DNA from: Ruminococcus bromii | GTDB lineage: Bacteria > Bacillota > Clostridia > Oscillospirales > Acutalibacteraceae | Reading direction: 5' to 3' | Assembly: GCF_002834235.1 (NCBI RefSeq) | Contig: NZ_NNBY01000036.1 | Location: 186,001 to 250,000 of the forward strand | DNA length: 64,000 nt | Shown: positions 527 to 29,217 of the stretch, piece after piece | Layout of the letters: every line of letters starts with the position of its first letter | Position numbering within the stretch: the first letter of the stretch is position 1 | The notes under the pieces: model-generated | Told to the model about the DNA's origin: nothing | The model's input: the letters and a program-made list of their open reading frames with translations, nothing else | Databases searched by the model: none | Made by a program: the position numbers and the translations under genes

Positions 527-3500
527 CTATCTTTCTCTGTCGTCTCTGCTTCTTGTGGGTGGCAGGTCGCCCTCGTCAGGCTCGCCTCCGACAACGGGAG
601 TATCTCCCTTATCCATATCAAGCAGGGCATTCAGCTCGGTCAGACGAGTCATTTTTTGTTTCAATTCATCCTCCTGTGCAAACGGTTTTTCCACCTCAAC
701 CTTTGCGGTTTCAAGCTGTGCCTTTGTATTTTCCAGCTGTTCCTCCGCCTTGTGCAATCTGGTTTCAATATTATCAGCAGCGTTATCAATTCGGGTTATA
801 TTTCCGTAAACATCTGTGCCGAGAGTAACTGAATGTGTGAAATGCCCTTTGAGTTTTACGGCATATGCACGCTCAAAGATATCAAATTCAAGTTCCATCT
901 TAAACCCTCTGTACTCACCGAGAGGAGTAGGCTCGGAAGTTGTTTTTGCTTTGCAGGCTTCAATAATCACCTGACCTGCTTCTGCCTTTTCTGTGTAGCT
1001 GTAACCGTCAATAACCATTCCTGCAAACTTGCCGTCAACCTCTTTCGGGTGTGCTTTGGCAATCTCTAAATCTGCTTTCAGTCCGTCAACTCTTGCAGTC
1101 AGCAATGATATTTCTTGCGGATAAAACTTTATGATTTTATCTTCAAGCTCATACTTTTCCGAAAGGTAATGTGACTTATACAGTCGTAGCTTTTGCACCT
1201 GAATATCCAAATCCATTTTCTCCCTGATATACGGATTTCCCGTTGCAAGCATCTTGATTTCAGCATAGGAAAGAGCAGTATCGTCTATATCCTCGGCAGA
1301 ACGGACAGGAGATTTTGAAGTCATAATTTGTGAAGCAAACTTCTGTTTACCCTCGACAAGCTGATACAGATATGCGTCAAAGGTTTCCTCGGTTACATAT
1401 CGGTAAACATCTACATCTGTGTTTTCATTTCCTTGACGGATAATTCGTCCCGAACGCTGTTCAAGGTCTGACGGTCTCCACGGACAGTCAATATCGTGCA
1501 AGGCTATGAGCTTGTTCTGAACATTCGTACCGGCACCCATTTTCTGTGTAGAACCGAGCAAAACTCTGACTTCTCCTTTGCGCACCTTTTTGAAAAGCTC
1601 CTGCTTTTGCGCCTCGGTTTTTGCTTCGTGTATAAAGCTGATTTCGCTTTCGGGTACACCTTGCTCTATCAGCTTTCTGCGAATATCCGTATAGACCGAA
1701 AACTCTGTGTCCGGTTTCGGAGTGGAGAGGTCGCAGAACACAAGCTGAGCTGATTTTTTGTCTGCGTTCTCCTGCCAAATCGTAAAAATATTATCAATAC
1801 AAGCATTGATTTTACTGCCCTCAAAGTCAGGAAGCAGAGGATTTATCATACGCTGGTCAAGGGCAAGCTTTCGTCCGTCGTTGGTGATTTTCAGCATATT
1901 ATCTACGCTTGCGTCAACCTGATTGTTTCTCACTTTTTCGGCTCGTTCTCCAAGCTCTTCTACCATAGCCTTTTGAAAATCGGAAGGCTTTACGGCAACA
2001 TTGTGATAGTGGGGAGTAGGTGTAGGCAAATTAAGTGTGTCTGCCGTTTTTATATCGGCAACCTCTTTGAACATTGCCATAAGCTCAGGCAAATTGTAGA
2101 ATTTAGCAAATCTTGTTTTCGTTCTGTAGCCTGTTCCCTCAGGTTTCAGCTCGTAGGCTGTTACGGTTTCACCAAAGGTGGAAGCCCACGAATCGAAGTG
2201 CTGCAAGTCGTTTTCTACAAGCGTTTCATACTGTAAATATCTCTGAATGGTATATAGTTCAACCATTGAGTTTGAGATTGGCGTACCTGTTGCAAAGACC
2301 GTTCCTCTGCCGCCTGTGATTTCGTCAAGGTATCTGCACTTCATAAACAGGTCCGAGGACTTCTGCGCTTCGGTCTGAGCTATTCCGCCGACATTTCTCA
2401 TTTTCGTATAGAGATAAAGGTTTTTGTAGTAGTGACTTTCGTCAATAAACAGCCTGTCAACACCCAGTTCTTCAAAGGTAACTACATCATCCTTTCGGCT
2501 TTGGTCGTTTAACTTCTGTAACTTTACCTTTAAGGATTTTCGGCTTTTTTCAAGCTGCTTGATTGAAAAGTTTTCTCCACGATTCTCTTTCAACTCACGA
2601 ATACCGTCTGTGATTTCGTCAATCTGCTGTTCAATGATAATTCTTTGCCTTTCAACGCTCATCGAAATTTTCTCAAACTGGGAATGTCCGATAATGATAG
2701 CGTCATAATCGCCTGTGGCAATTCGTCCGCAGAAGCGTTTGCGGTTTTTAGTTTCAAAATCCTTTTTGGTTGCAACAAGGATATTTGCCGCTGGATAGAG
2801 CTGTAAAAACTCTGCCGCCCATTGTTCGGTCAGGTGATTAGGCACAACAAAAAGCGACTTACTGCATAAGCCAAGCCGCTTTGATTCCATAGCTGCCGCC
2901 GTCATCTCGTAGGTTTTGCCTGCGCCGACTGCGTGTGCAAGCAAGGTATTTCCACCGTAAAGAATATGTGCAACAGCGTTTTTCTGATGTTCCCTGAGTT
3001 CAATTTCAGGATTCATACCGCTAAAGGTAATATGACTTCCGTCGTACTCACGGGGTCTTGTGCTGTTAAATTTTTCGTTATATAGTTTGCAGAGCTTTTC
3101 ACGGCGCTGCGGGTCTTTCCATATCCATTCCTTAAAGCCTTCTTTGATAAGCTCCTGCTTCTGCAATGCGATTGTAGTTTCCTTTTTATTGAGTACTGGT
3201 TTCTTTCTGCCTTCCTCATCCTCAACATAATCGAATATGCGGACATCCTTGAGGTTAAGTGTTTCCTCGATTATTTTATAAGCATTGATTCGGTCTGTGC
3301 CGTAGGTGCGGTACACCTTGAGATTACTTGTATCGTAGCTTTTGTTTTCAATGCTCCATTCACTCGTATAGGGTGAATAGTGAAGTTTGATTTTCCATTG
3401 TGCATAGCGTGGAGTATCAAGAAATTCATAGATAAACTGCTGCACAATATCGGTCGGAATCCAGGTTGCACCAAGCCTTACGGAAATCTCGGAAGCCGTT

Positions 3501-6500
3501 AAATCCTTTGGCTGTGCCCTTTCAAGAGCTTCAACATTGATGTTGTAATCATCAGGATATAGTTTTGCCGAACGCCTTGCGACTTCAAACTTTTCACGGA
3601 CATTACCAGACAAATATTCGTCTGCCATAAGGTATTTCTGTTCGTCAGGATTGCCCTGACCGTAGAGAGGATTGAGAAAAATTACACCTTTCAGTTCCTC
3701 AAAAACCTCCTGCTCACTCTTGCCTGAAAGCTGGCACATATATTTCATATCAATACCCGCCTTTTCTCCCATAGAAACGGCGAGTGCTTCGGAAGCTGTG
3801 TCAACGGAAGTAACAGGTGTATGAGGCTTGATTGTCCGCTTAAAAAACATATCCGCCTTGCGTTCAAGGTTGCCCTCGTCATCGAGTATTTCCAATGAAG
3901 ATAACAGCGAGTAGGAACTGTCCTGTGAGAACGCCATAGTATTTGCACGGCTGTTGATAAGTCCGTACTTTTTTGTAAAACTGTCATACAGCTTATTAAG
4001 CCTTTCCTGTTCAGCTTTTATATCGCTGTCAGGATAGTCTTCCGTCTGCAAATCTAAAAGAGTACGGACGGAATTTCTTATCTCAATAAGTCCCTTTATT
4101 CGGTTTTCAGCCGTAGCCGACACTTCAACAGGTGACATTCGGCTGTTTTCACGGAAATAGATTACATCGTCAAGTACGGTATATGAGAAGTTTCTGACGT
4201 TCGGATCAGCAGGGATTGAATTATCTTCTTCCTTTATATTTTCTTCCGTTTCATACTCCGTAATTTCGCCGTGAATATTGGAAACAGCTTCATCAAGCAG
4301 GCTTTCAAGATCAGCGTTTTCATAAGGCGTACAAGTTGTTTCATCACCAAACCGACCTGATACAATTTTCATATCGCCAAGTATCATTTCGGGGTGTTCT
4401 GCAAAGTAGCTGTTCATTCTGATACCGTTTTTATCTGTATTAAGGTGTACCCAATCAGGCTCAATATCTATGATACGGTCACGCTTTTGCAGTATGAGAA
4501 TATCGGATACAACCTCCGTCCCTGCATTCCCCTTAAAGGTGTCATTCGGAAGTCTTATAGCGCCGAGCAATTCCGCTCTCTGTGCGATATATTTTCGCAC
4601 GGCTGGGTTTTCCTTGTCCATTGTACCCTTTGAAGTTACCAACGCCATTACACCGCCCGGGCGGAGCTTGTCGAGCGACTTTGCAAAAAAGTAATCGTGG
4701 ATTAAGAAATGGTTTTTATCATAGCGTTTATCTGCAACGCTGAAATCGCCGAAGGGCACATTACCCACAACTGCGTCAAAAAAGCTGTCCGGAATTTCTG
4801 CCTGCTCAAACGGCTGTCCTGCAATAGAGGAACGCTGGTAGAGTTGCTGTGCAATGCCTGCGGAGATTTTGTCAATCTCCACACCGTAAACACGGCTGTT
4901 CTCCATTGACTGAGGCAGCATACCGATAAAATTACCGATGCCGCAGGAAGGCTCCAAAATGTTGCCCTCCTTAAATCCCATCTGTTCCATAACCTTGTAA
5001 ATTGCAGAAATAACGACAGGCGGTGTATAGAAAGCGGTCAAGGTACTTTCTCTTGCTGACTGATATTCTTCATCGGTAAGTAACTGTGATAACTCGTTAT
5101 ATTCACTTTTCCAAGTAGCATTATTCTCATCAAAGGCTTCCGGTATTCCGCCCCAGCCTACATACTGAGCGAGGATTTGTTGTTCTTCGGGTGTAGCAAA
5201 GCGGTTTTCCTCTACGCATTCTTTTAACACACGGATAGCATCAATATTTCTGTGGAAGCGAGCCTTTTTACCGACCTCCTCAAGCTCAAAATTTTTGAGG
5301 TCAAATGTGTATCGGTCATCCAAAGAAATCTCAGGGTGCAGGTCAAAGGTCTGTGCCTTCGCTTTCTGTTTTATCTCCCAAACAGGCGCATCAAGTTCTT
5401 CCTTTTCGGAAAGTTCAAGAGCAGATCGAACGAAATCGGCTTTTTCAACTCTGAATATCGGAAAACCGTTACTGTCCTCAAAGGTAATGTCACGCATAGA
5501 AGCATCACCGTTTCTGTCAACCCGTTCAACAATGAAACGGCGGTTGTCAAGCGTGAGTTCCTTGCCGATAAGGTCGGAGTTATCAATCCTGCCGATTGGT
5601 TCGGACTGAATGGGAGCGTGTGACCTGTCGGAAGCCATAAGAATAAAATCCCGACTTTCTCTGTCGTTTGGACTTGAAATACCGATATTGTAGCCTCGGT
5701 CAAGCAGCATATCCGTATATGTTTCAAGCCTGTGTGACGGAAATCCGCACATATCAATTCGTTCTGTATCGGTTATTCTTCGGGTTGTGTTATGCAGGCT
5801 GAGTGCCTGTGAAACGGTTACGGCATCATCGCCCATAGCTTCGTAAAAATCACCGATTTGGAACAGAATAATCGTATTGGGATGTTCGTCCTTAATCTTG
5901 AAGTATTCCTGCATAACAGGACTGTATCTGCTGTAATCACGCTTTGTAATCTGTTTTTCTTTTTCGGGTTGTACGGCAACTTTTAAATGGTCGTTCATCG
6001 GGTTTTCTTTGACTTTGCTGTCAAATTCCGTCCTTGTCATTTCCTTGTTGAAAAGAGGAAACTGTTTGTCAAAAAGCATTACACGGTTTTCGTCAAAGGA
6101 CAGAATTTCATACTCATCCGCTCCGATATATACCGATGCCCCGAGCGAATATTTGTATTCATATTCAACAGGGACAACTTCCTTTTCAGCAGGTGGAGTA
6201 TATATTGCTTCACGAATTTCTTTCTCCGCCGCCCGTTCAGCTCTTATCTGCTCCTGTTTTTCAAGCCAAGTCGGATAATATTCCCTTTCCTTTGGATTGA
6301 GGTATCGGTCAAGTTTTATAAGTTCGCCGATGCGTTTTTCAACCTTACTCCAATTTAACAGCAGTCGTGGTGCGTTATCTTCAAAGCCACGGCTGAGCAT
6401 AATACCTTTGCCGTCGTGACTTTCATCAATCCCTGTTCCGATAATAATTGGATATGAGCCGCCCCAGCCATACTCGTTTTTCAGAAAATCAATGTTTTCT

Positions 6501-6834
6501 TTTGCAGATAGGGACTTTTGAAACTGCTCGTAAATCCTCATTTTACCCTCGCTTACACCGCTTCCGTGGGTAAGTACAGCGTCAATAATCTTCTGAGAAA
6601 AGGCAAAGGCAGAAGTTTTTTCTCCTGCCTCGGCTGTTAATATTTCCAACTGCCCTTTAAGAGAGGGCAGAGGTTTTGTTGTATCTCTTAATTCACCGAG
6701 CAAACGCATACCCTCAAAATATCCTGCAATAACACCCCAATCATAGTAGGCTTGCGATATTTTATTATCCTGCTCGCCTTCCCACAAAAGAAGTACATTC
6801 TGATAGGTTTTATATCCCATCCGCTTTTGCTTAT
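527..6834 (-). pseudogene. Giant MutS-I-like/N6-methylase/SNF2-helicase gene, 3' part (split by element B)
   Basis: About 2100 residues of a very large ICE protein. Counting from the codon at 6862: a MutS-I-like segment at about 312-396 (QIGDFYEAMGDDA, DMCGFPSH), an N6-adenine methylase at about 540-860 (EPSCGIGNF SAM site, variant catalytic motif NVPFGDF), an SF2/SNF2 helicase with Walker A AHAVGAGKT near 1309, DESH near 1472, ATGTPISNS, and motif VI QRSGRIIRQGN near 1805, then a C-terminal coiled coil. The missing 5' part is at 46741-48217. The first codons of the open frame, upstream of KQKRMGYK, derive from element B. Proteins of this type are thought to protect or remodel incoming DNA; whether the 3' part is translated alone is unknown. 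Confidence 0.9.
6828..6834. repeat. Left TGCTTAT copy, attL-type junction of element B
   Basis: TGCTTAT here equals the copy at 46734-46740. The bases to the left read as codons of the giant gene (KQKRMGYK on the minus strand) and those to the right are element DNA. Large serine recombinases exchange at a 2-bp core, so only two of the seven shared bases need be the crossover; which two cannot be told from sequence. Confidence 0.8.
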
Positions 6835-6876
6835 GTGTGATAAAGAAGCAATAGAAGTGCAAAAAATTTTGCCGTT

Positions 6877-6909
6877 CCTATCCGACACTTGGCCATTGTG
6901 TCGGATAGG
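6877..6909 (-). terminator. Intrinsic terminator of the B recombinase gene
   Basis: A perfect 12-bp stem (CCTATCCGACAC / GTGTCGGATAGG) with a 9-nt loop lies 9 bases downstream of the recombinase stop codon. On the minus strand it is followed after a short gap by an ATTTTTT tract. Confidence 0.65.
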
Positions 6910-6917
6910 TCGGGCGG

Positions 6918-8351
6918 TTATTCGGGCAAGTCAATCTTGCCGACAAAGCTGTAATAAATCTCAATGTCCTGCCTGCGGGTGCCGTTCTCATCATAGCTGC
7001 ACTCATGCACCACAATTTTCTCGATCATTTCCCGCAAGAGAGTGGGGGTCAGTTCTTCAAAGGCAAGGTGCTTGCGGACAATGCCCATAAATTTCTCGGC
7101 GTTGACGGTAGCTGCCTGTGACTTGTCCAGTTCGGCTTGCAGGGCGGCGGCTCTCTTTTTCAGCTCCGCTTGCTCGGCTTCGTAGTCAGCCGACAGTTCC
7201 ATGAAACGCTCATCGCTGATTTTGCCGTTTACATTGTCCTCATACAGCCGCTTGATAATGCGGCTGATTTCAGAAATGCGTTCCTGCGCCTGTTCAAGCT
7301 GCTTGATGGCTGCGGCGGTCTTTCGCTTGCCGCCGATCTCGTTCTGCTGGACAAGTAGTTTCACAAACCGGCTCTCATGCTTGGCTGCGTATTCGGTCAC
7401 TTGCCGGAGATTTGCCAGGACACCAGCGGTCAACAGATCGGTGCGGATAAAGTGCGCCGTACAGTTGCGGGTGCGCTTCTTGTAGCTGCCGCAGATGTAG
7501 CAGTCCTGTTTGCGGTCTTTGTTCTGATACCGCTGCTGATACAGCACATGGCCGCAGTCGGCGCAGAACAAAATCCCGGAGAACAGCCCCACTTCATCGT
7601 AGCGGTTCGGGCGTTTGCGCTGTTTGCGTAACTCCTGCACCCGTTCCCATGTTTCCTTGTCGATGATCGGCTCATGGTGGTTCTCGAAAATGGCCTGCTT
7701 CTCGACGGGGTTCTCTATGCTGTGCTTGACCTTATAAGAAGGCTTTTCCGTTTTGAAGTTCACCAGACATCCGGTGTACTCTCGGTTTTCGAGGATATGA
7801 ACGACGGTGTTGGTCGCCCATTTGCACTCATAGCCTGGGTGATAACGGCGGGTGCTGCCTGTCCGCTGATATTCCAGCGTCCCCGGCGTGGGGATTTGCT
7901 GCTCCGTCAGCATACGGGCAATCTTGGTCGGGCCGTTCCCGGCAAGGCAAAGCTGGTAAATCTGCTGCACCACCGGGGCGGCTTCCTCGTCTATAATAAA
8001 ATTCTCGTCCTCGTCCATCACATAGCCGTAAACCGGCTTGCTGGTAACAGGCTTGCCGCTCATGCCTTTTGACTTTTTCACTGCCTTGATTTTCTTGCTC
8101 GTATCTCTCACCAGCCATTCATTGAACAGATTTCGCAGCGGGGTAAAATCGTTGTCCATGCCCTCGCTGGCACTGTCCACATTATCGTTGACAGCGATAA
8201 AACGCACACCCTTTTGAGGGAACAGCATTTCCGTGTAAAACCCTACCTGCAAGTAGTTTCGCCCTAACCGGCTCATGTCCTTGACGATGACCGTACCCAC
8301 TTTCCCGGCTTCAATGTCCGCAAGCATGGCTTGAAATCCGGGCCGCTGGAA
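6918..8351 (-). pseudogene. Large serine recombinase of element B, 3' part (split by element C)
   Basis: This encodes the recombinase from QRPGFQAML to the C-terminus. It includes [12 protein letters not shown] of the resolvase domain, the recombinase domain with YGYVMDE, a zinc ribbon (LFCADCGHVLY with CYICGSY), a coiled coil and the end VHECSYDENGTRRQDIEIYYSFVGK. The catalytic serine and the first about 55 residues are absent; they lie at 37084-37268. The open frame continues to 8417, but those 22 or so residues derive from element C and do not resemble a recombinase start. The fragment cannot be catalytic as it stands. Excision of C would restore a full protein of about 540 residues. Confidence 0.92.
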
Positions 8352-8375
8352 AGCTGACGTTAGATAACGATACTT
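8350..8375. repeat. Left end of element C, inverted-repeat terminus
   Basis: Read outward on the minus strand, this end is GTATCGTTATCTAACGTCA then GCTT. The right end read outward has GTATCGTTATCTTACCTCA, with two mismatches in 19. The AA at 8350-8351 is the inferred core shared with 37084-37085. Confidence 0.8.
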
Positions 8376-8452
8376 TTGAAAACACTGGAAAATCAAGGTT
8401 TTTCGAGCGACGGACAAGCAGGGTATTGTACTAAAAACTGAATACGACGCAG

Positions 8453-8502
8453 AAGCGGCGTTTCTTACTCTCTACATGGGAGAACAGGAACGCCGCTTTT
8501 TT
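8453..8502 (+). terminator. Intrinsic terminator-like hairpin ahead of the C transfer operon
   Basis: A 10-bp stem AAGCGGCGTT / AACGCCGCTT encloses a 26-nt loop, and the T tract runs to 8502. It lies between the left end of C and the first repeat unit. It could insulate the operon from outside transcription or act as an attenuator. The 8352-8651 stretch otherwise holds only the end of C and the 112-bp repeat. Confidence 0.65.
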
Positions 8503-8512
8503 CATGCCCTTT

Positions 8513-8624
8513 GTTACGCAGTAGGGGCAGAAAAAGCCTTGCTACAAGCGGTTTTCCGGGCGCGTATCTGGCGCGGAAAGGGATTTATACCTTATCCCCC
8601 GAAACCGCGCTTCTACTGCGTAAC
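8513..8624. repeat. 112-bp palindrome-ended repeat, copy 1 (before the transfer operon)
   Basis: The unit begins GTTACGCAGTAG and ends CTACTGCGTAAC, a perfect 12-bp inverted repeat. A second unit of exactly the same length lies at 29079-29190, directly oriented. Gap-free hand alignment gives about 77 identities in 112, with invariant blocks TTTCCGGGCG at offset 40, TTTATACCT at offset 71 and CCCCC at offset 83. It ends 27 bases before the initiator gene. The function is unknown; an origin element, regulatory RNA or recombination site are all possible. Confidence 0.7.
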
Positions 8625-8651
8625 AAATCCAAAGCAAAGGAGCTATGAACT

Positions 8652-9635
8652 ATGGCAGTTTTCAGAGTGGAACGAAACAAGGGCTATACCGTAATGAGCA
8701 ACCACCACCTACGCAACAAGGAGCTTTCCCTAAAGGCAAAGGGGCTGTTGTCGCAAATGCTGTCACTCCCCGAAGATTGGGACTACACCTTGAAAGGCTT
8801 ATCCCTTATCAACCGGGAGAAGATAGACGCTATCCGCGAAGCCATTAAGGAACTTGAACGCGCCGGGTATATCGTCCGTTCAAGGGAGCGCGACGAGAAA
8901 GGACGCTTGCGGGGCGCGGACTATGTGATATTCGAGCAGCCGCAGCCGCCTACGCCGGATTTACCTACATTGGAAAATCCAACATTGGATAATCCAATGC
9001 AGGAAAAACCAACATTGGAAAAACCTACGTTGGAAAATCCAACGCAATTAAATAAAGATATACAAAGAACTGACTTACCAAAAAAAGAAAAATCAAATAC
9101 AGATTTATCAAGTACCCATTCCATTCCTATCCTTTCCCCTAACCCCTCTCCTTGCAGAGAAGCGGCTGCGCCGCCGGAACGGAAAGGAACGGAAGCGGCA
9201 GCACAGAGCGCAGTTGATATATACCGGGAAATCATCAAGGACAATATCGACTACCACATTCTCAAACAGGACATGAAGTTTGACAGTGACAGGCTGGACG
9301 AGATTGTAGACCTCATGCTTGAAACCGTATGCACCGCCAGAAAGCGGGTACGGATTGCGGGGGACGACTACCCGGCAGAGCTTGTGAAGTCAAAGTTTAT
9401 GAAACTAGACGGCGAGCATATCCGCTTTGTGCTTGACTGTATGCGGGAGAACACAACCAAAATCCGCAACATCAAGCAATATCTGAAAGCCGCCCTTTTC
9501 AACGCCCCGTCCACAATCGGCAACTACTACACTTCCCTTGTCGCCCATGACATGGCAAGCGGCGCACTGTCACCGAAAAAGCCGCAGTACGGCGACCCGG
9601 ACTATTATTCATGCAATGAGGGCGAAAGCCTGTAA
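8652..9635 (+). CDS. Replication initiator/HTH protein (DUF6017-type)
   Basis: 327 residues. The N-terminus (about 1-100) is a winged-helix initiator-like domain with LRNKELSLKAKGLLSQMLSLP and DWDYTLKGL. The middle (about 105-130) is a run of PTLENP/PTLEKP units. The C-terminal domain ends DPDYYSCNEGESL, almost the same tail as the RepA_N protein of element B. It is the first gene of the long transfer operon, with AAAGGAGCT before the ATG. It probably initiates plasmid-like replication of the excised circle, which TopB and the relaxase elsewhere in C would support. The repeated DNA encoding the PTLE units may be the origin. Confidence 0.75.
   Translation: MAVFRVERNKGYTVMSNHHLRNKELSLKAKGLLSQMLSLPEDWDYTLKGLSLINREKIDAIREAIKELERAGYIVRSRERDEKGRLRGADYVIFEQPQPPTPDLPTLENPTLDNPMQEKPTLEKPTLENPTQLNKDIQRTDLPKKEKSNTDLSSTHSIPILSPNPSPCREAAAPPERKGTEAAAQSAVDIYREIIKDNIDYHILKQDMKFDSDRLDEIVDLMLETVCTARKRVRIAGDDYPAELVKSKFMKLDGEHIRFVLDCMRENTTKIRNIKQYLKAALFNAPSTIGNYYTSLVAHDMASGALSPKKPQYGDPDYYSCNEGESL
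8963..9052 (+). repeat. In-gene iteron-like repeats (putative oriV of element C)
   Basis: Five imperfect units on the theme CCTACATTGGAAAATCCA recur at 15-24 base intervals inside the initiator gene and encode the PTLE(N/K)P repeats. RepA_N plasmids are known to carry their origin as repeats in the middle of the rep gene, which is the basis for this call. Protein-level selection for a proline-rich linker is the alternative. Confidence 0.5.
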
Positions 9636-9666
9636 CCACCCACAACCACAAAAGGAGGATTTTATT

Positions 9667-9888
9667 ATGGCACAGAAAATGACAGGAGCATTGGTATTTG
9701 ACGAGCGCACCGACCGTTACGACATCCGCTTTGACTTAAACAGCTACTACGGGGGCTTGCATTGCGGCGAGTGCTTTGACGTATTCGTGCGGGGCAAGTG
9801 GAAGCCGACCCGGATTGAGTACGGCGACAACTGGTATCTTGTGGGTATCAGAGCCGAGGACTTGAACGGGCTGCGGGTGCGTATCTGA
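9667..9888 (+). CDS. DUF5348 small protein
   Basis: 73 residues, with TGALVFDERTDRYDIRF, GGLHCGECFDV and WYLVGIRAEDLNGLRVRI, the pattern of DUF5348 proteins found after the initiator in Tn1549-type elements. It is predicted to be a small beta-rich cytoplasmic protein with no catalytic motif. AAAGGAGG at 9651-9658 precedes the ATG. It lies in the transfer operon between the initiator and PcfB. Its role is unknown. Confidence 0.75.
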   Translation: MAQKMTGALVFDERTDRYDIRFDLNSYYGGLHCGECFDVFVRGKWKPTRIEYGDNWYLVGIRAEDLNGLRVRI

Positions 9889-9929
9889 CCGCCGCCCCAT
9901 AAAGAAACGCGAAAGGAGGACGCGACAAA

Positions 9930-10358
9930 TTGCAGGACGAAGTAAACGAAAAGACCATAGCCCTTTACATCAAGACCGGGAAGCTGACCGCGCAGACGCT
10001 CCAAAAGGCAATGAAAGCCATACTGTCAAAGGGCAAAAAGCAGCTTGCAAAACCGCCACAGGGCAAGCAGAGCTTAAAGCAGCTTATGAAGCAGAACGCG
10101 GGCGTTTCCAACATTGAGATTACCGAGGGCAATATCAAAGCCTTTGAGAGTACGGCGAAAAAGTACGGTATCGACTTTGCGCTGAAAAAGGACGCGGACG
10201 TACTGACCGCAGCCTTTAAGGAATTTTCCGCAAAAAAGCTGACACAGGAGAAAAAGCCCTCAATCCGAAAGCTGCTCTCTACCCTCAAAGAAGCTGCACA
10301 GGGCAGAAACGCGGAACGGGCAAAGGTCAAGAACAAGGACAGGGAGGTATCGCTATGA
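9930..10358 (+). CDS. PcfB family conjugation protein
   Basis: 142 residues, starting at TTG with GAAAGGAGGA upstream. The N-terminal NEKTIALYIKTGKLTAQTLQ and LKQLMKQNAGVSNIEI segments are typical of PcfB, a partner of the coupling protein in pCF10-type conjugation that helps bring relaxosome and channel together. The C-terminus carries KKPSIRKLLSTLKE (about 108-121), a motif echoed at the tails of two other proteins in this operon. Its stop overlaps the VirD4 start by 4 bases, so the two are translationally coupled. Confidence 0.85.
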   Translation: MQDEVNEKTIALYIKTGKLTAQTLQKAMKAILSKGKKQLAKPPQGKQSLKQLMKQNAGVSNIEITEGNIKAFESTAKKYGIDFALKKDADVLTAAFKEFSAKKLTQEKKPSIRKLLSTLKEAAQGRNAERAKVKNKDREVSL

Positions 10359-12163
10359 AGCCGGAAATCAAGAAGCTGCTTATCCTAAATCTCCCGTATC
10401 TGCTCTTTGTCTGGCTCTTTGATAAAGTGGGCGCGGCTGTCCGGCTCTCCCCCGGCGCGGACGCAAGCGCAAAGCTGCTACATCTTGGGGACGGTTTTAC
10501 CGCCGCCTTTTCCAGTATCGCGCCGAGCTTCCACCCGGCAGACTTAGCTTTAGGCATTGCGGGGGCGGTCATTGTCCGGCTGATTATCTACACCAAAGGC
10601 AAGAACGCGAAGAAATACCGCCGCGGGACAGAATACGGTTCGGCGCGTTGGGGCGGGGCTGACGACATAAAGCCGTACACCGACCCGGTATTTGAGAACA
10701 ATATCCCCTTAACGCAGACGGAACGGCTCACCATGAACAGCCGCCCGAAGCAGCCGAAATACGCAAGAAACAAAAATATCCTTGTAATCGGCGGTTCCGG
10801 CAGCGGCAAGACCCGGTTCTTTGTGAAACCGTCGCTCATGCAATGTACGTCAAAGGATTTTCCAACGTCGTATATCGTCACTGACCCGAAAGGAACACTG
10901 ATTTTGGAAACCGGGAAAATGTTACAGCGGTACAAATACCGTATCAAAGTGCTAAATACGATTAACTTCAAAAAATCCATGAAATACAATCCCTTTGCCT
11001 ATCTGCGGAGCGAAAAGGACATTTTGAAGTTAGTCAATACCATTATCGCCAACACCAAAGGCGACGGGGAAAAATCCGGCGAGGATTTCTGGGTGAAAGC
11101 GGAAAAGCTCTACTACACCGCGCTAATCGGCTACATCTGGTATGAAGCCCCGGAGGACGAGAAGAACTTCACGACGCTGCTTGAGATGATAAATGCGTCG
11201 GAAGCCCGCGAGGACGACGAGGATTTCCAGAACCCGGTTGACCTCATGTTTGAACGTCTGGAAGAAAAAGACCCGGAACATTTTGCAGTCAAGCAGTACA
11301 AAAAATACAAACTTGCGGCGGGCAAGACCGCAAAAAGCATACTTATCTCATGCGGCGCGAGGTTAGCCCCATTCGACATTAAGGAGCTGCGGGAGCTTAT
11401 GGAAACCGACGAAATGGAGCTTGACACCATAGGCGACAGAAAGACCGCCCTTTTCGTCATCATCAGCGACACCGACGACACTTTTAACTTTGTCGTTTCA
11501 ATCCTTTACACACAGCTATTCAACTTGCTTTGTGACAAGGCAGATGATGAATACGGCGGGCGGCTTCCCGTCCATGTTAGGTGCTTACTTGATGAATTTG
11601 CGAATATCGGGCAGATACCAAAGTTTGAAAAGCTCATTGCAACGATACGGAGCCGGGAAATATCCGCGTCAATCATCTTGCAGAGCCAGTCACAGCTAAA
11701 AGCCATTTACAAAGACAACGCCGATACCATAGTCGGCAACTGCGACACCACGCTTTTCTTGGGCGGCAAGGAGAAAACCACCCTTAAAGAAATATCGGAA
11801 ATTTTAGGAAAAGAAACGATAGACAGCTTTAACACGTCCGAAACAAGGGGGCGGGAGCTTTCGCATGGGCTGAACTATCAGAAATTGGGAAAGCAGCTTA
11901 TGACGGAAGATGAAATTGCAGTCATGGACGGAGGGAAATGTATCTTGCAGCTACGCGGGGTGCGCCCGTTCTTTTCGGACAAATTCGACATAACGAAGCA
12001 CCCGAAATACAAGTACCTGTCCGACGCAGACCCGAAGAACGCCTTTGACATGGAAAAGCACCTTAAACGCCGCCCCGCCATTGTCAAGCCCGACGAGGTT
12101 TTTGACTATTACGAGCTTGACGCGGCAGACTTACAGGAGGACGCAGACCATGAGGAAACGTAG
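10355..12163 (+). CDS. virD4: VirD4-like type IV coupling protein
   Basis: 602 residues. Two N-terminal membrane segments (about 6-30 and 65-82) anchor it in the membrane. A Walker A site GGSGSGKT lies at about 145-152 and a Walker B LLDEFANIG at about 410-418, followed by the conserved SQSQLKAIY and FLGG segments. It is the ATPase receptor that passes the relaxase-DNA complex to the type IV secretion channel. It is fourth in the transfer operon, overlapped at both ends by its neighbours. Full length, with no sign of damage. Confidence 0.93.
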   Translation: MKPEIKKLLILNLPYLLFVWLFDKVGAAVRLSPGADASAKLLHLGDGFTAAFSSIAPSFHPADLALGIAGAVIVRLIIYTKGKNAKKYRRGTEYGSARWGGADDIKPYTDPVFENNIPLTQTERLTMNSRPKQPKYARNKNILVIGGSGSGKTRFFVKPSLMQCTSKDFPTSYIVTDPKGTLILETGKMLQRYKYRIKVLNTINFKKSMKYNPFAYLRSEKDILKLVNTIIANTKGDGEKSGEDFWVKAEKLYYTALIGYIWYEAPEDEKNFTTLLEMINASEAREDDEDFQNPVDLMFERLEEKDPEHFAVKQYKKYKLAAGKTAKSILISCGARLAPFDIKELRELMETDEMELDTIGDRKTALFVIISDTDDTFNFVVSILYTQLFNLLCDKADDEYGGRLPVHVRCLLDEFANIGQIPKFEKLIATIRSREISASIILQSQSQLKAIYKDNADTIVGNCDTTLFLGGKEKTTLKEISEILGKETIDSFNTSETRGRELSHGLNYQKLGKQLMTEDEIAVMDGGKCILQLRGVRPFFSDKFDITKHPKYKYLSDADPKNAFDMEKHLKRRPAIVKPDEVFDYYELDAADLQEDADHEET

Positions 12164-12320
12164 CGCAGAGGAAAAACAAAAGCAGCTTGAACGGTTTTTA
12201 ATGAATGTTGCGGAAGCCGCCGACGCTGCATTATGGGAGTATTGGCGGGAAAAGGAAGCGGAACACCGCCGTTTTGCAACGGAGTATGTCACGCGCCGGG
12301 GGCTTATCCCGCAACAGTGA
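12150..12320 (+). CDS. Small hypothetical transfer-operon protein
   Basis: 56 residues, highly charged and helical (RSAEEKQKQLERF, WEYWREKEAEHRRFA), starting inside the end of virD4 with AGGAGG ten bases upstream. No domain is recognised. The tight overlap and position suggest an accessory role in transfer. Confidence 0.6.
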   Translation: MRKRSAEEKQKQLERFLMNVAEAADAALWEYWREKEAEHRRFATEYVTRRGLIPQQ

Positions 12321-12731
12321 CAGCATGGCAGACCGCCGGGGGACAGGGGAAGCTACACTTCCCCTACGCTGCCTTGCGGCAGCTACCCCTTTGTGAACTT
12401 GCGGGAAGCGAACACCTTGCTACGCAAGCTATTCACTTCCCGCAAGTCTGAAAAAAACGTCCGGCAGCACAGCGGAACACAGAAAGGAGCGATTGAAGCA
12501 ATCACATCTATCCATACCGGCTACATGATACGCGCCCCCACTTTCCGGCGCAGTACACAGCGGCAGGAGCCGCACCCCTTACAACTGAATACCGCCGCGC
12601 CGCAGAACTTACGCAGCGCGGGGACAGCCGCCTTTACCAGAGGGCGGTTTTTTTGTGCGGCGGCGACCATACGCTGACCGCCTTTTGTCCGCTTGCCGGA
12701 CAGCCGCAGACGCGGCAGAAAGGATATATTT
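12321..12731. other. Intergenic stretch without a convincing gene
   Basis: 411 bases between the small virD4-linked gene and Maff2. The short open frames here lack family resemblance and good ribosome sites. A terminator-like hairpin at 12628-12654 (CCGCCTTT / AGGGCGG then seven T) may make expression of the downstream channel genes conditional. Confidence 0.5.
12628..12654 (+). terminator. Terminator-like hairpin inside the transfer operon
   Basis: A GC-rich stem CCGCCTTT / AGGGCGG with a short loop is followed by TTTTTTT. It lies 78 bases before the Maff2 gene. Because essential channel genes follow, it is more likely an attenuator than a full stop. Confidence 0.5.
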
Positions 12732-12947
12732 ATGGCATTTTTCAATAGCGCAGTAGACGTTTTGCAGACCCTTGTTGTAGCACTTGGAGCCGGGCTTGGT
12801 ATCTGGGGCGTAATCAATCTGATGGAGGGCTACGGCAATGACAATCCGGGCGCAAAGAGCCAGGGCATGAAGCAGCTTATGGCGGGCGGCGGCGTTGCCC
12901 TTATCGGCATGACCCTTGTACCGCTGCTTTCCGGCTTGTTCGGTTAA
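12732..12947 (+). CDS. Maff2 family small membrane protein
   Basis: 71 residues, nearly all in two hydrophobic segments (VLQTLVVALGAGLGIWGVIN and GGVALIGMTLVPLLSGLFG) joined by a short polar loop (NDNPGAKSQGMKQL). This is the Maff2 family found just before the TrbL/VirB6 gene in Tn1549-like elements; size and topology recall VirB2-type pilin subunits, which is an inference. AAAGGATAT precedes the ATG. Confidence 0.8.
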   Translation: MAFFNSAVDVLQTLVVALGAGLGIWGVINLMEGYGNDNPGAKSQGMKQLMAGGGVALIGMTLVPLLSGLFG

Positions 12948-12966
12948 GAAGCGCGGGTAAAGGCTT

Positions 12967-13836
12967 ATGCAGAGCATACTTGACGCGATTAACGAATGGA
13001 TAAAGGAAATCCTCATAGGAGCCATAAACGGTAATCTGTCAACTATGTTCGGGGACGTAAACGAAAAAGTCGGCACTATCGCCGCAGAGGTAGGGCAGAC
13101 CCCGCAAGGGTGGAACGCAAATATATTCTCCATGATACAGACCCTTAGTGAAAATGTAATCGTACCCATTGCGGGGCTTGTCATTACCTACGTCCTATGC
13201 TATGAGCTTATCAGCATGGTAACGGAAAAGAACAATATGCACGACGTTGACACTTCCATGTTCTTCAAGTGGGTGTTCAAGGCGTTTGTGGCAGTCTACC
13301 TTGTGACGCACACCTTTGACATTACTATGGCGGTGTTCGATATGGCGCAGCACGTTGTTTCCGGCGCGGCGGGGGTAATCGGCGGCAGCACAGAGATTGA
13401 TGTTGCCGCCGCCCTTGCTTCCATGCAGAGCGGGCTTGACGCTATGGAAATCCCCGAACTGCTCTTACTTGTCATGGAAACAAGCCTTGTGAGCTTGTGC
13501 ATGAAAATCATGTCCGTACTGATAACCGTTATCCTCTACGGGCGCATGATAGAAATTTACCTTTACTGTTCGGTATCGCCTATCCCGTTTGCAACTATGA
13601 CGAACCGGGAATGGGGGCAGATAGGAAACAACTACCTAAAATCCCTGTTCGCTATCGGTTTTCAAGGCTTCCTCATTATGATATGCGTCGGCATTTACGC
13701 GGTTCTGGTAAACAACATGATAATAGCGGACAATCTGCACAGCGCGATATTCTCCCTTGCAGCCTATACCGTTATCCTCTGTTTCTCCCTGTTCAAATCC
13801 GGCGCACTGGCGAAGTCGATATTCTCCGCGCATTAG
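12967..13836 (+). CDS. TrbL/VirB6-like conjugal transfer membrane protein
   Basis: 289 residues with an N-terminal amphipathic stretch (ILDAINEWIKEILIGAI) and about five membrane segments, including VIVPIAGLVITYVLCYELI, FLIMICVGIYAVLVNNMII and LAAYTVILCFSLFKSGALA. This is the polytopic inner-membrane channel protein (VirB6/TrbL type) of ICE type IV secretion systems. It follows Maff2 by 19 bases and precedes the PrgI and VirB4 genes, the usual order. Confidence 0.82.
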   Translation: MQSILDAINEWIKEILIGAINGNLSTMFGDVNEKVGTIAAEVGQTPQGWNANIFSMIQTLSENVIVPIAGLVITYVLCYELISMVTEKNNMHDVDTSMFFKWVFKAFVAVYLVTHTFDITMAVFDMAQHVVSGAAGVIGGSTEIDVAAALASMQSGLDAMEIPELLLLVMETSLVSLCMKIMSVLITVILYGRMIEIYLYCSVSPIPFATMTNREWGQIGNNYLKSLFAIGFQGFLIMICVGIYAVLVNNMIIADNLHSAIFSLAAYTVILCFSLFKSGALAKSIFSAH

Positions 13837-14013
13837 CGGCGTGTCAAGGGCAGGGTGGAGATTTTCAGAGCGAAGCGGCGAAAATACGACCCGACCTTGA
13901 CGCGGATAACCCCCATATAATACGGGCGGGCAAAGGGCATAGATTGACCTTTGCCTTGATTACCCTTATGGAAAATTACAGCAACACCAAACCCAGAGAA
14001 AGGAGGTTTTCAC

Positions 14014-14415
14014 TTGGCGTATGTACCCGTACCCAAAGACTTATCCAAAGTCAAGACAAAAGTAGCTTTCAACCTTACCAAACGGCAGATTGTATGTTTT
14101 GCGGCGGCTCTCCTGTTCGGCTTGCCGCTTTTCTTTCTGCTCAAAGACAGCACAGGCACAAGCCTTGCGTCTATGGCTATGATTGCCGTCATGCTGCCCT
14201 GTTTCCTCTTTGCCATGTATGAGAAGCATGGACAGCCCCTTGAAGTGGTGGTGAAGAACATCATACGGACAAAATTCATAGCCCCCAAAGAACGACCATA
14301 CAGGACAGACAACTTTTATTCCGTCTTAGAACGGCAGAGAAAACTTGAAAAGGAGGTATCAGCGATTGCAAAAGGAAACACGAAGAAACAGCGCGGCGGG
14401 AAGCACAAAGCCTAA
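14014..14415 (+). CDS. PrgI family conjugation protein
   Basis: 133 residues, starting at TTG with AAAGGAGG upstream. AYVPVPKDLSKVKTKVAFNLTKRQ precedes two membrane segments (about 28-47 and 52-69), then YEKHGQPLEVVVKNIIRTKFI and an RPYRTDNFY segment. PrgI/VirB3-like proteins sit in the membrane and partner the VirB4 ATPase. The 177 bases before it contain no gene. Its end overlaps virB4 by 50 bases. Confidence 0.85.
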   Translation: MAYVPVPKDLSKVKTKVAFNLTKRQIVCFAAALLFGLPLFFLLKDSTGTSLASMAMIAVMLPCFLFAMYEKHGQPLEVVVKNIIRTKFIAPKERPYRTDNFYSVLERQRKLEKEVSAIAKGNTKKQRGGKHKA

Positions 14416-16804
14416 CCCGCCCCGCAAGCTCACCCGCGCCGAGAAAAAGCAGATTGCGGAAATCATCAGACAGGCAAAGGGCGACGGGAAAGCCCACACC
14501 GCGCAGCAGACAATCCCCTATATCCAGATGTACCCGGACGGTATCTGCAAGGTTACGGGACGGAAATACTCAAAGACCGTCGCCTTTGAAGATATTAACT
14601 ATCAGCTTGCACAGGCAGACGACAAGACCGCCATTTTTGAGAACTGGTGCGACTTCCTCAACTACTTTGACGCTTCCGTTTCGGTGCAGCTTTCTTTCAT
14701 CAATCAAGGGACGCAGCGCGGCGAAGCGGAAAAGGCGGTCAATATCCCGGCACAGGAGGACGCTTTCAATTCTATCCGCACAGAATACCGGGATATGCTG
14801 AAAAACCAGCTTGCAAAGGGCAACAACGGGCTTGTCAAAGCAAAATATATCACCTTTGCCATTGAAGCCGACAGTCTGGGCGCGGCGAAATCCCGCCTTG
14901 CCCGTATCGAAACGGACGTACTCAACAACTTTAAGCTCTTGGGCGTGTCTGCCCGCCCCATGACAGGCTATGAACGCCTTAAAATGCTGCATGGCATTTT
15001 CCACCCGGAGGGCGGGCAGTTTGCCTTTGATTTTTCATGGCTTGCCCCGTCCGGGCTTTCCACAAAGGACTTTATCGCCCCGTCCTCTTTCCGTTTTGGC
15101 GAGGGGCGTTATTTCCGCATGGGGCGCAAAATCGGCGCGGTTTCATTCCTTGAAATCCTTGCGCCGGAATTAAACGACCGTATCTTATCTGACATTCTGG
15201 ACTTGGAAACGGGCGTTATCGTCAATCTGCATATCCACAGTATCGACCAGACCGAAGCCATAAAGACAATCAAGCGCAAGATTACCGACCTTGACAAAAT
15301 GAAAATCGAGGAACAGAAGAAAGCGGTACGCAGCGGCTATGACATGGATATTATACCGTCCGACCTTGCCACTTTCGGCAGCGAAGCGAAGAATCTCTTA
15401 CAGGACTTGCAGAGCCGGAATGAAAGAATGTTCCTCTTGACGTTCCTTGTGGTGAACATGGCGGACACGAAGCGGAAACTGGAAAATGACGTATTCGCGG
15501 CGGCGGGCATTGCACAGAAGAACAACTGCGCCTTAACCCGCCTTGACTACCAACAGGAAGCGGGGCTTATGTCCTCTGTACCGCTTGGGGAGAACCTTAT
15601 CCCCATTCAAAGAGGGCTTACCACGTCAAGCACCGCTATCTTTATCCCCTTTATCACACAGGAGCTTTTCCAGACGGGCGCGGCTTTGTACTACGGCTTA
15701 AACGCCCTTAGTAACAACATGATACTCTGCGACCGCAAGCAGCTAAAGAACCCCAACGGCTTAATCTTGGGTACGCCGGGAAGCGGGAAATCCTTTGCCG
15801 CCAAACGGGAAATGACAAACGCTTTCCTCATTACCGACGACGACATAATTATCTGCGACCCGGAAGCAGAGTATTTTTCCCTTGTGCAGCGGCTTGACGG
15901 GCAAGTGATACGCTTATCCCCTACGGGCAAGGGCATTGACGGGAAGCCCCAGTATGTGAACCCTATGGATATTAACCTCAATTACAGCGAGGACGACAGC
16001 CCCCTTGCGCTGAAATCCGACTTTATCCTCTCCCTCTGCGAGCTTGTCATAGGCGGCAAGGAGGGCTTGCAGCCCGTCGATAAGACCGTCATTGACCGCG
16101 CCGTTAGGAACGTGTACCGCCCTTTCCTTGCAGACCCCGACCCGGAGAAAATGCCTATCTTGGGCGACCTCTACAACGAGCTTTTGAAGCAGCCGGAGCC
16201 GGAAGCGGCGCGTATTGCGGCGGCGTTGGAGCTGTATGTTTCCGGGAGCCTTAACGTATTCAACCACCGTACCAACGTGGAGCTGAACAACCGCCTTGTC
16301 TGCTTTGACATCAAGCAGCTTGGGAAGCAGCTCAAAAAGTTAGGTATGCTCATTGTGCAGGACCAGGTATGGAACCGCGTCACCGTCAACCGGGCAGAAA
16401 GGAAATCCACCCGGTATTTTATGGACGAATTTCATCTTCTCTTGAAAGAGGAACAGACCGCCGCCTATTCCGTTGAAATCTGGAAGCGTTTCAGAAAATG
16501 GGGCGGCATACCCACAGCCATTACGCAGAATGTCAAGGATTTGCTTGCTTCCCGCGAAGTGGAGAATATCTTTGAAAACTCTGATTTTGTCCTCATGCTC
16601 AATCAGGCGGCGGGCGACCGGGCTATCCTTGCGAAGCAGCTCAACATCTCCCCGCAGCAGATGAAATATGTCACCCACACCGAAGCGGGCGAGGGGCTTA
16701 TCTTCTACGGGAACGTGGTGCTGCCCTTTGTAGACCGCTTCCCGAAAGACACCGAGCTTTACCGGGTAATGACGACGAAGCCGGAGGAAGTGGGCGAAGC
16801 ATGA
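14366..16804 (+). CDS. virB4: VirB4-like type IV secretion ATPase
   Basis: 812 residues from the TTG at 14366, chosen because AGGAGG lies at 14351-14356; an in-frame TTG at 14345 lacks a good site. Walker A GTPGSGKS lies at about 469-476, Walker B YFMDEFHLL at about 684-692, followed by the VirB4-type ITQNVKDLL and FVLMLNQ segments. It powers assembly of the conjugation channel and substrate passage at the membrane. The stop overlaps the methyltransferase start by 4 bases (ATGA). Confidence 0.93.
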   Translation: MQKETRRNSAAGSTKPNPPRKLTRAEKKQIAEIIRQAKGDGKAHTAQQTIPYIQMYPDGICKVTGRKYSKTVAFEDINYQLAQADDKTAIFENWCDFLNYFDASVSVQLSFINQGTQRGEAEKAVNIPAQEDAFNSIRTEYRDMLKNQLAKGNNGLVKAKYITFAIEADSLGAAKSRLARIETDVLNNFKLLGVSARPMTGYERLKMLHGIFHPEGGQFAFDFSWLAPSGLSTKDFIAPSSFRFGEGRYFRMGRKIGAVSFLEILAPELNDRILSDILDLETGVIVNLHIHSIDQTEAIKTIKRKITDLDKMKIEEQKKAVRSGYDMDIIPSDLATFGSEAKNLLQDLQSRNERMFLLTFLVVNMADTKRKLENDVFAAAGIAQKNNCALTRLDYQQEAGLMSSVPLGENLIPIQRGLTTSSTAIFIPFITQELFQTGAALYYGLNALSNNMILCDRKQLKNPNGLILGTPGSGKSFAAKREMTNAFLITDDDIIICDPEAEYFSLVQRLDGQVIRLSPTGKGIDGKPQYVNPMDINLNYSEDDSPLALKSDFILSLCELVIGGKEGLQPVDKTVIDRAVRNVYRPFLADPDPEKMPILGDLYNELLKQPEPEAARIAAALELYVSGSLNVFNHRTNVELNNRLVCFDIKQLGKQLKKLGMLIVQDQVWNRVTVNRAERKSTRYFMDEFHLLLKEEQTAAYSVEIWKRFRKWGGIPTAITQNVKDLLASREVENIFENSDFVLMLNQAAGDRAILAKQLNISPQQMKYVTHTEAGEGLIFYGNVVLPFVDRFPKDTELYRVMTTKPEEVGEA

Positions 16805-17760
16805 ACGGGCTGAAAACTGACACCATCATCAACCGGGACGCGCTCTATGCCTTGCGGGAGCTTCCAGAGGAAAGCGTACACTGTTGCGTCACAAGCCCGC
16901 CCTACTATGCGCTTAGGGATTATGGGCTTGATATGCAGATTGGGCGGGAGGACACGCCGGAGCAGTACATTGACAGGCTGACCGAGGTTTTCCGCGAGCT
17001 GCGCCGGGTACTGCGTTCTGACGGTACGCTCTGGCTGAATATCGCGGACACCTACTGCGGCACAGGGAACAAGGGCTACCATGCAGACCCGAAGAACCCG
17101 AAAGGCAGAAACGGACAGCAGATTGCAAAAAACAACCGCGTTTCCGGCTGCAAACAAAAGGACTTAATCGGTATCCCTTGGCTTTTAGCTTTTGCCCTAC
17201 GCGCTGACGGGTGGTATTTACGGAGCGACATTATCTGGCAGAAAGAAAACCCCATGCCGGAGAGCGTGAAAGACCGCCCTACCCGCTGCTATGAACATAT
17301 CTTTCTGCTTACGAAGTCAAAGAAATATTTCTATGACGCAGCCGCCATAGCCGAGCCGTTAGCCCCCACAACGGCGGCGCGGTACCGCACCGGGCGCAGC
17401 GCGGGACAGAAATATGCGGACGAAGTACCCGGACAGGGGAAAGTACAGGGGCTTAACCGGGCGAGAAGCGGCAGCTACTACGACGAAGCCCTCATGCCGA
17501 CCATGCGGAACAGGCGGGACGTGTGGCTTATCAATACCGTACCCTACAAGGGCGGGCATTTCGCCGCGTTCCCGCCAAAACTTGCCGAAACCTGTATCAA
17601 GGCGGGCTGTCCGAAAGGCGGCGTTGTGCTTGACCCCTTTTTCGGCAGCGGCACGACGGGAGCAGCCGCAAGGCAGCTTGACAGGCATTATATAGGCATT
17701 GAGATAAACGCCGAGTATTGCGCCCTTGCAAGGGCGCGGATTGGAGGGACAGAAAAATAA
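16801..17760 (+). CDS. Site-specific DNA methyltransferase (beta class)
   Basis: 319 residues. The catalytic TSPPYY comes first (31-36) and the SAM-binding DPFFGSGTTG comes near the end (about 278-287), the motif order of beta-class N4-cytosine/N6-adenine methyltransferases. The target site cannot be read from sequence. No restriction partner is adjacent, so it is an orphan enzyme. Inside a transfer operon it most plausibly modifies element DNA against host restriction, alongside the ArdA/ArdC fusion further down. Confidence 0.88.
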   Translation: MNGLKTDTIINRDALYALRELPEESVHCCVTSPPYYALRDYGLDMQIGREDTPEQYIDRLTEVFRELRRVLRSDGTLWLNIADTYCGTGNKGYHADPKNPKGRNGQQIAKNNRVSGCKQKDLIGIPWLLAFALRADGWYLRSDIIWQKENPMPESVKDRPTRCYEHIFLLTKSKKYFYDAAAIAEPLAPTTAARYRTGRSAGQKYADEVPGQGKVQGLNRARSGSYYDEALMPTMRNRRDVWLINTVPYKGGHFAAFPPKLAETCIKAGCPKGGVVLDPFFGSGTTGAAARQLDRHYIGIEINAEYCALARARIGGTEK

Positions 17761-17795
17761 AACAGTATCGAGCGCGTGAGAAAGTCACGCAGAAA

Positions 17796-19865: not shown

Positions 19866-19903
19866 CAACAAAAAAATGAAAATCTGAAAGGAGAAATTTA
19901 TTG

Positions 19904-20182
19904 ATGGCTATGAACAAAATTGAACGTATCGACAAGGAGATTGCAAAGACCCGCGAGAAAATCACCGAGTACCAGAATAAATTAAGGGGGCTTGAAGCGC
20001 AGAAAACCGAAGCGGAAAACCTGCAAATCGTACAGCTTGTGCGCTCCATGCGCCTTTCCCCGCATGAGCTTTCCGCTATGCTTTCCGGGGGCGGTATTCC
20101 GGGCATGGAAGCCGCGCCGGGCTACCCCGCAGAACCCGCAGACCACGACACCGAAGAAATGGAGGACACCGAGAATGAATAA
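19904..20182 (+). CDS. DUF4315 family coiled-coil protein
   Basis: 92 residues. The first half is a coiled coil (KIERIDKEIAKTREKITEYQ and LRGLEAQKTEAENLQI), followed by MRLSPHELSAMLSGG and an acidic tail, the DUF4315 pattern seen after the CHAP gene in Tn1549-like elements. AAAGGAG precedes it; ATG 19904 is preferred over the adjoining TTG 19901. It overlaps the DUF4366 start by 8 bases. Function unknown. Confidence 0.8.
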   Translation: MAMNKIERIDKEIAKTREKITEYQNKLRGLEAQKTEAENLQIVQLVRSMRLSPHELSAMLSGGGIPGMEAAPGYPAEPADHDTEEMEDTENE

Positions 20183-20885: not shown

Positions 20886-21070
20886 CCCTGTTTACCGACA
20901 ATCCCTTTGAAAAGATGATGATACAAAGACCGGGCGGGCGGCGTGACAATGCGCCGCCCGTTCCCCATTCCCCGGCTTGCGCTTCCTGTCCGTACAAAGG
21001 GCAGCTCCCTTGTGTGGGCTACTGTCTGAAACAGGTACAGGAGAAAAAGGCAAGTGAGCCGGAACGCTGA
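20882..21070 (+). CDS. Small cysteine-containing transfer-operon protein
   Basis: 62 residues with a C-x2-C and a further Cys (ACASCPYKGQLPCVGYC), possibly a small metal-binding module. It is coupled to the DUF4366 gene by an ATGA overlap. No family is assigned. It is the last plus-strand gene before the antisense Shedu insertion. Confidence 0.6.
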   Translation: MTLFTDNPFEKMMIQRPGGRRDNAPPVPHSPACASCPYKGQLPCVGYCLKQVQEKKASEPER

Positions 21071-21080
21071 AAATGGACTT

Positions 21081-21833: not shown

Positions 21834-21911
21834 ATTGTCACCTGTTTCTTATAGTAATGCTTAAAGTATAAACCAATTTCAAACCTAAAACAACCGAAAG
21901 GAGAACAGAAA

Positions 21912-23996: not shown

Positions 23997-24005
23997 AAAC
24001 TTGAA

Positions 24006-27562: not shown

Positions 27563-27565
27563 CCC

Positions 27566-28519: not shown

Positions 28520-28521
28520 GC

Positions 28522-29190: not shown

Positions 29191-29217
29191 ATTCACGAAA
29201 ACAGCACCCATAAAAAG

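Follow-up and report, generated by a model that had tools for sequence, protein, structure and literature searches.

A MutS domain I with its mismatch wedge kept in the split polyvalent gene of a conjugative element from Ruminococcus bromii

Results

The frame that carries the MutS domain

A stretch of 64,000 nucleotides from Ruminococcus bromii (contig NZ_NNBY01000036.1, positions 186,001 to 250,000; the window) contains on its minus strand an open reading frame (ORF), 527..6862, which constitutes the C-terminal part of a giant polyvalent gene. The frame encodes 2111 amino acids from a TTG, or 2097 from the first ATG at 6820, and aligns with residues ~488 onward of the relatives L100 and L098 (relatives are referred to by locus number). 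It holds a MutS domain I (MutS-I; 5675..5920, residues 315–396), followed on the same strand by an adenine methylase core at 4565..4963 and a SNF2/SF2 translocase at 1430..2953. The methylase core contains the sequences NILEPSCGIG (residues 634–643) and NVPFG (residues 701–705), which we take to be methylase motifs I and IV, and is matched by Pfam Eco57I (PF07669, residues 684–766, E 9.9e-6, 26.2 bits against a cut-off of 25.3). For the translocase Pfam identified SNF2-rel (residues 1304–1410) and Helicase_C (residues 1707–1811). Conflict-related domains (MutS_I, Eco57I methylase and SNF2/Helicase_C) are in this way gathered in one long frame, as in polyvalent proteins.

Identity of the domain

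An earlier note, made from the letters of the DNA, had described a MutS-I-like stretch at about 5560–5960, and this was borne out by a sequence match far beyond chance. The strings quoted there are found on the minus strand of the frame: QEYFKIKDEHPNTIILFQI at 5855–5911, GDFYEAMGDDA at 5822–5854 and DMCGFPSHRL at 5726–5755. The profile comparison suggested for residues 312–396 gave Pfam MutS_I (PF01624) at residues 315–396 (E 1.6e-22, 80.3 bits, cut-off 20.6), the match ending at profile position 83 of 113, and two NCBIfam MutS models matched solely residues 314–396 (84.7 and 76.1 bits, cut-offs 480 and 641.7). When the domain was compared with PDB chains using phmmer, all 25 distinct sequences at E<=0.01 were MutS, Msh3 or MSH6 (best E 9.4e-15), and the alignment places it in register with residues 10–93 of E. 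coli MutS.

An AlphaFold2 model built on an alignment of 16 rows had a mean predicted local distance difference test score (pLDDT) of 84.2, and ~90 over the MutS-I domain. Among the 50 matches listed by VIA-align, MutS-family chains occupy ranks 1–43 (Z 16.0 to 12.0) and the best fold other than MutS reaches Z 6.1; the best match is 7oto_A (Z 16.0, 1.9 Å over 97 residues), and 1e3m_A is matched at Z 15.3 (2.2 Å, 105 residues). Foldseek concurs in a MutS-family fold (best E 1.1e-8). The structure prediction proposed in the earlier note was thus carried out, and instead of a fold unrelated to MutS-I it returned MutS-family chains at the top of the list. By sequence and by predicted fold alike, the stretch is a true MutS domain I; a chance resemblance is ruled out by the Pfam, phmmer and fold matches.

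Absence of other MutS domains

None of MutS_II to MutS_V was detected by Pfam in the 2111 amino acids at E<=1, and two complete MutS proteins scanned by the same procedure showed all five MutS domains. A full MutS fused to, or broken inside, the giant protein is ruled out, as neither Pfam nor NCBIfam found a further MutS domain. It follows that the giant is no repair protein: having no clamp, lever or MutS ATPase, it cannot itself run mismatch repair. The host genome encodes a MutS of its own (C32), so mismatch reading is not missing in the host, and the idea that the domain substitutes for an absent host MutS was rejected.

The Phe-X-Glu wedge and its conservation

In MutS, the Phe-X-Glu of only one subunit makes specific contacts to the mismatch; the phenylalanine stacks on the mispaired base from the minor groove of the duplex and the glutamate bonds to the same base (PMC3848065, PMC12292046, PMC3437207). 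Replacing Phe36 or Glu38 abolishes mismatch recognition by MutS (PMC3848065, PMC12292046; for F36A also PMC3437207). By counting along the PDB alignment, the GDFYE of the window domain (5840..5854, minus strand) was placed on these residues, F339 and E341 corresponding to F36 and E38 of E. coli MutS.

When the domain was aligned with 10 relatives (33–46% identical) nine columns were invariant, including the G, F and E of GxFxE; the rows were chosen by hand and include neither second copies without the motif nor short or fragmentary ones. A census was based on a profile made from 11 canonical copies with the five GxFxE columns masked, run on the giant proteins. It recovered 29 MutS-I copies in 25 ORFs (24 MutS-I loci and L096, the latter from the MutS_I search), and Phe-X-Glu is kept in 23 of the 29. 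The six copies without it are the second copies of L092, L095 and L288, the first copy of L247, and those of L236 and L260. Among 27 non-identical copies the phenylalanine is found in 22 and the glutamate in 21, ranking 11th and 15th among the columns, and in 19 MutS rows both residues are present in all 19. Three fragments from the MutS_I search, L102, L104 and L105, stand outside the census; L102 has GDFYE and L105 GGFYE, and both fall among MutS on the tree. One genome scan and one viral scan searched with patterns in which F-[FY]-E was already required, so the motif counts do not include their loci.

Canonical copies gave ratios of nonsynonymous to synonymous substitution (dN/dS) of 0.02–0.27 in six informative pairs of seven, the seventh pair being identical, which we read as signs of purifying selection. 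The motif-less copies gave 0.08–0.14 in three informative pairs of four, a less secure estimate, since these pairs share the same three sequences and have dS >1. Retention of the motif points to its use, since MSH2 and MSH3 lack Phe-X-Glu, which is present in MSH6 (PMC3848065), and fold without it; MSH3 chains match the window model at Z ~15.

Proteins with two copies

Four ORFs of the census (L092, L095, L247 and L288) hold two MutS-I copies, and in all four exactly one copy has the motif ("seeing") and the other has lost it ("blind"). The same was observed in L114, L119 and L231, of which L114 and L119 came from a scan that required at least one motif-bearing copy. Two conserved types can be told apart among the motif-less copies, one in L247, L114 and L119 and one in L092, L288 and L260. 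A predicted model of a tandem pair was weak (pLDDT 68.9; the other four models 34–41), too weak to reveal how the two copies are arranged, and its structure matches cover chiefly the canonical copy, so that the model does not show the fold of the blind copy, whose identity as a putative MutS-I comes from sequence profiles.

Occurrence among the giant proteins

The methylase block was found at E<=1e-20 in 60 of the 398 genomes of the window family, at 88 places. MutS-I was seen at 24 of 87 giant loci sampled from the DNA around all 88 places; this is a minimum, because contig ends or the chosen bounds cut some stretches short. The window genome has two further giants. In one, L098 (C27), the blocks N1, X, Y and methylase are 69, 52, 69 and 76% identical to those of the window protein; their order is N1-X-Y-methylase, compared with N1-Y-MutS-I-X-methylase in the window, and the stretch between Y and methylase is not recognisable as MutS-I. 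The other (C26) has MutS-I ~650 residues ahead of the methylase block. MutS-I is accordingly a part of some giants and missing from others with the same neighbouring blocks.

The small domains X and Y have no Pfam name and were delimited by BLAST of parts. Y (5963..6178, minus strand), upstream of MutS-I, forms strands in the AlphaFold2 model and adjoins MutS-I in many relatives; X (5399..5608, minus strand), downstream of it, is also present in L098, the giant of the same genome without MutS-I.

The gene is split by inserted mobile DNA

The N-terminal part of the giant gene was located by tblastn at 46718..48217 on the minus strand, an ORF of 499 amino acids which the N-termini of L098, L091, L100 and L090 match over nearly its full length. 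This homology stops near 46826, and the next residues of the relatives match at 6865 and below, for three of the four by tblastn and for L100 by a separate alignment. The gene is thus split by ~40 kb of inserted mobile DNA (6866..46825, ends approximate), in which Pfam identified a coupling protein of a type IV secretion system, a TraG-type ATPase, a topoisomerase, an LPD15-ArdA-ArdC polyvalent protein, two relaxases, two large serine recombinases and a tetracycline-type ribosomal protection protein. The last is encoded at 44160–46079, inside the split giant gene of the outer element, and the insert's own polyvalent protein (24236–27562, plus strand) combines LPD15, ArdA, ArdC-N, a metallopeptidase, YodL and DUF4316.

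The earlier note had placed the domain in a giant protein of an integrative and conjugative element (ICE), fused to an N6-methylase and SNF2 helicase behind an ArdC-like domain. MutS-I does share its frame with methylase and SNF2 and the gene does belong to a conjugative element, but in the window the gene is in two frames, its N-terminal part ~40 kb away across mobile DNA, and the weakly ArdC-like part is cut off by the insertion. Pfam gave no match, ArdC included, on the 499 amino acids of that part at E<=0.01, and the N-termini of L091 and L090 have a weak tblastn match (E 2e-6) to the ArdcN region, as defined by Pfam, of another protein in the window.

The 9 kb to the left of the window hold, on the strand of the giant gene, genes for a type IV coupling protein (E 3e-66), PrgI (E 1.4e-31), a relaxase (E 7.4e-39) and a Toprim-DUF3991 protein, which assign the giant gene to a conjugative element. 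A Phage_int_SAM_3 integrase is found ~42 kb away and a fragment of one ~18 kb away. Elsewhere in the window, the gene at 57308–59209 (plus strand) codes for an OLD-family-like ATPase with a TOPRIM domain and may serve in defence next to the element, and a surface protein of 1397 amino acids that has a thioester domain and nine stretches of SpaA is encoded at 50085–54278 (minus strand).

Copies outside the giants and their origin

MutS-I also appears in other settings. Bacteroides phage B124-14 ORF064c (L228, 2543–2788) is a gene of 81 amino acids consisting of MutS-I alone, with F-C-E for F-Y-E, and small ORFs with MutS-I occur in the viral contigs L191 and L193. The domain is fused to a dynein-related AAA+ ATPase in viral contig L189 (9686–11317) and to a PcfK-like protein in the unverified phage clone MT835493 (L230, 7467–8459). 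On Chroococcidiopsis plasmid pB (L227, 3037–9807), outside Firmicutes and Bacteroidetes, it lies near the C-terminus of a Strawberry-notch helicase giant. Among the phage and plasmid records examined, 8 of 82 with a tblastn match, two hold a complete MutS and six each have a copy with F-x-E.

In a tree of 83 columns the Bacteroidota giant L135 and the small phage copies fall among Bacteroidota MutS (support 94), and most Firmicutes giants are placed away from these. A single clade of all giant-protein copies was rejected (p 0.011), in a test chosen after the first tree had been seen, and a single clade of all non-MutS rows was not (p 0.27); the tests used 83–84 columns, 14 of the 97 rows having been excluded because they were long or fragmentary. 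Repeated capture of MutS-I by mobile elements is, on these alignments, likely but not secure.

Discussion

The intact key residues suggest that the domain really probes irregular or mispaired DNA. We give somewhat better than even chances to the reading, drawn from sequence and predicted structure, that MutS-I acts as a DNA-structure reader in the polyvalent protein of the conjugative element and places the methylase-translocase on irregular duplex. The Phe-Tyr-Glu wedge would probe the duplex from the minor groove and stop where bases are mispaired or unpaired or where the duplex kinks easily. In this way the methylase-SNF2 module would come to sit on irregular stretches of the element's duplex, whether freshly converted, nicked, at a junction or in a heteroduplex of the attachment site. 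The SNF2 motor could then move the module, and the methylase mark the DNA against restriction. The setting put forward in the earlier note, heteroduplex arising on entry of the element into a related genome, is one of several scenarios, and none of the evidence speaks for it in particular.

Several observations weigh against this reading. In L236 and L260, two of the 25 ORFs, the sole detectable copy is motif-less, and the fragment L104 has GLFE, with leucine for phenylalanine, which would bring the count to 23 of 30 if it were included. According to titles of PDB entries, crystal structures exist of MutS mutated at E38 and bound to G:T DNA; E38 is therefore not needed for all binding. MutS-I alone may bind weakly, to judge from MutS, where domain I works inside a dimeric clamp. 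The AlphaFold2 model has a predicted template modelling score of 0.43 and spans a part of the protein that does not include the methylase. Finally, MutS-I was not found at 63 of the 87 giant loci, some of them cut by contig ends or bounds, and is thus not essential to the methylase-SNF2 protein.

A role in holding short single-stranded stretches of the entering element has been proposed in print by Iyer and colleagues (PMC5512222), who found MutS-I together with ArdC-N, read as a binder of single-stranded DNA, in ~80% of cases. We regard such an accessory role as unlikely here: the target of Phe-X-Glu is a base pair in duplex DNA, reached through the minor groove (PMC3848065), and merely holding single strands gives no known reason for its being kept in 23 of 29 copies under a masked search. 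It is equally doubtful that the fold has been re-used for protein-protein contact or for generic bending of DNA by a processive methylase, without mismatch specificity. Motif-less copies persist, those that can be tested look selected, and archaeal XPB has a MutS-I-like domain ahead of an SF2 helicase (PMC3353954; a weak match, Z 4.8), but the joint retention of both motif residues in those 23 copies would be left without explanation. That the domain is a decoy or antagonist of mismatch repair, covering mismatches and blocking host MutS on recombining or integrating element DNA, is quite improbable, for even though the host has its own MutS (C32) and attachment sites of ICEs can carry heteroduplex, such ICEBs1 circles being unstable (PMC3715440), a decoy has no need of fusion to a methylase and a motor, and the integrase types of carrier and non-carrier elements do not visibly differ.

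This comparison of integrases was made by eye, without a statistic, on 31 hand-chosen genomes, and no separation of MutS-I carriers from non-carriers was visible among the matches listed. Phage_int_SAM_3 was listed within ~60 kb of the carriers G000:C36, G007, G135:C22, G624:C31 and G627:C4 and of the non-carriers G135:C19, G084:C7, G751:C2, G025:C3, G170:C2 and G732:C2 (genome and contig numbers). As it lies near both alike, a link of MutS-I to integrase type was dropped.

Returning to the domain as a reader of DNA structure, it may be speculated, with little confidence, that the protein is a structure-guided methyltransferase, in which MutS-I rather than a recognition sequence directs methylase and SNF2, the target being mispaired or kinked duplex, and that the seeing and blind pair on one chain in some relatives is a counterpart of MSH6/MSH2. 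MutS-I is familiar mainly from the MutS clamp; its capture by mobile elements may have happened repeatedly, and most of their copies have kept the mismatch residues. If the mismatch reading is true, mispaired DNA would be a regular problem for conjugative elements, or one of the marks they use, and MutS could supply a small, free-standing domain for probing mismatches. The prediction for F339 and E341 is at residue level, which makes the role of the domain directly testable.

Comparison with known systems

The window protein shares with E. coli MutS (1E3M, 7AI6) the fold of domain I and Phe-X-Glu, but lacks connector, core/lever, clamp and ABC-ATPase and has instead a methylase and a SNF2 motor in frame. 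The giants with one Phe-X-Glu copy and one that has lost it resemble MSH6/MSH2 of eukaryotic MutS-alpha; unlike these, both copies are on one polypeptide and there is no MutS dimer, and the window protein itself is single-copy. Archaeal XPB likewise has a damage-recognition domain structurally like MutS-I ahead of an SF2 helicase (PMC3353954), but no methylase, and its structural match to the tandem model is weak (Z <=4.8). DarB-type proteins of phage P1 and relatives, of which DarB protects phage DNA from restriction, combine an adenine methylase with a SWI2/SNF2 ATPase; no MutS-I is described in DarB in the accessible parts of PMC5512222.

Heteroduplex is known from ICEBs1, where integration and excision at imperfect sites produce it in the attachment site; the instability of the resulting circles was unaltered by loss of mutS (PMC3715440). 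In streptococcal ICEs, a SNF2/methylase gene can harbour nested mobilizable elements that carry serine recombinases and tet(O) (PMC5357655, PMC7168690). The insertion described here is similar, but the insert is larger and carries conjugation genes.

The closest system is that of the polyvalent proteins of Firmicutes and Bacteroidetes conjugative elements, in which MutS-I was described in 2017 and, according to that paper, has its sole place outside MutS; recognition of single-stranded DNA was proposed for it (PMC5512222). These proteins likewise have MutS-I without the rest of MutS, and ArdC-N and the pair of adenine methylase and SWI2/SNF2 were described in them, but the window copy sits in a gene split by an insertion. 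In the literature searched for MutS-I in polyvalent, conjugative or stand-alone contexts nothing on the subject was found, among the papers listed, besides this one, whose accessible parts make no mention of phenylalanine, MSH6, B124 or paired copies; the kept Phe-X-Glu, the seeing and blind pairs and the stand-alone phage versions were, within those parts, not found. The window protein thus belongs to the kind described in 2017, and the kept mismatch wedge is what is new here.
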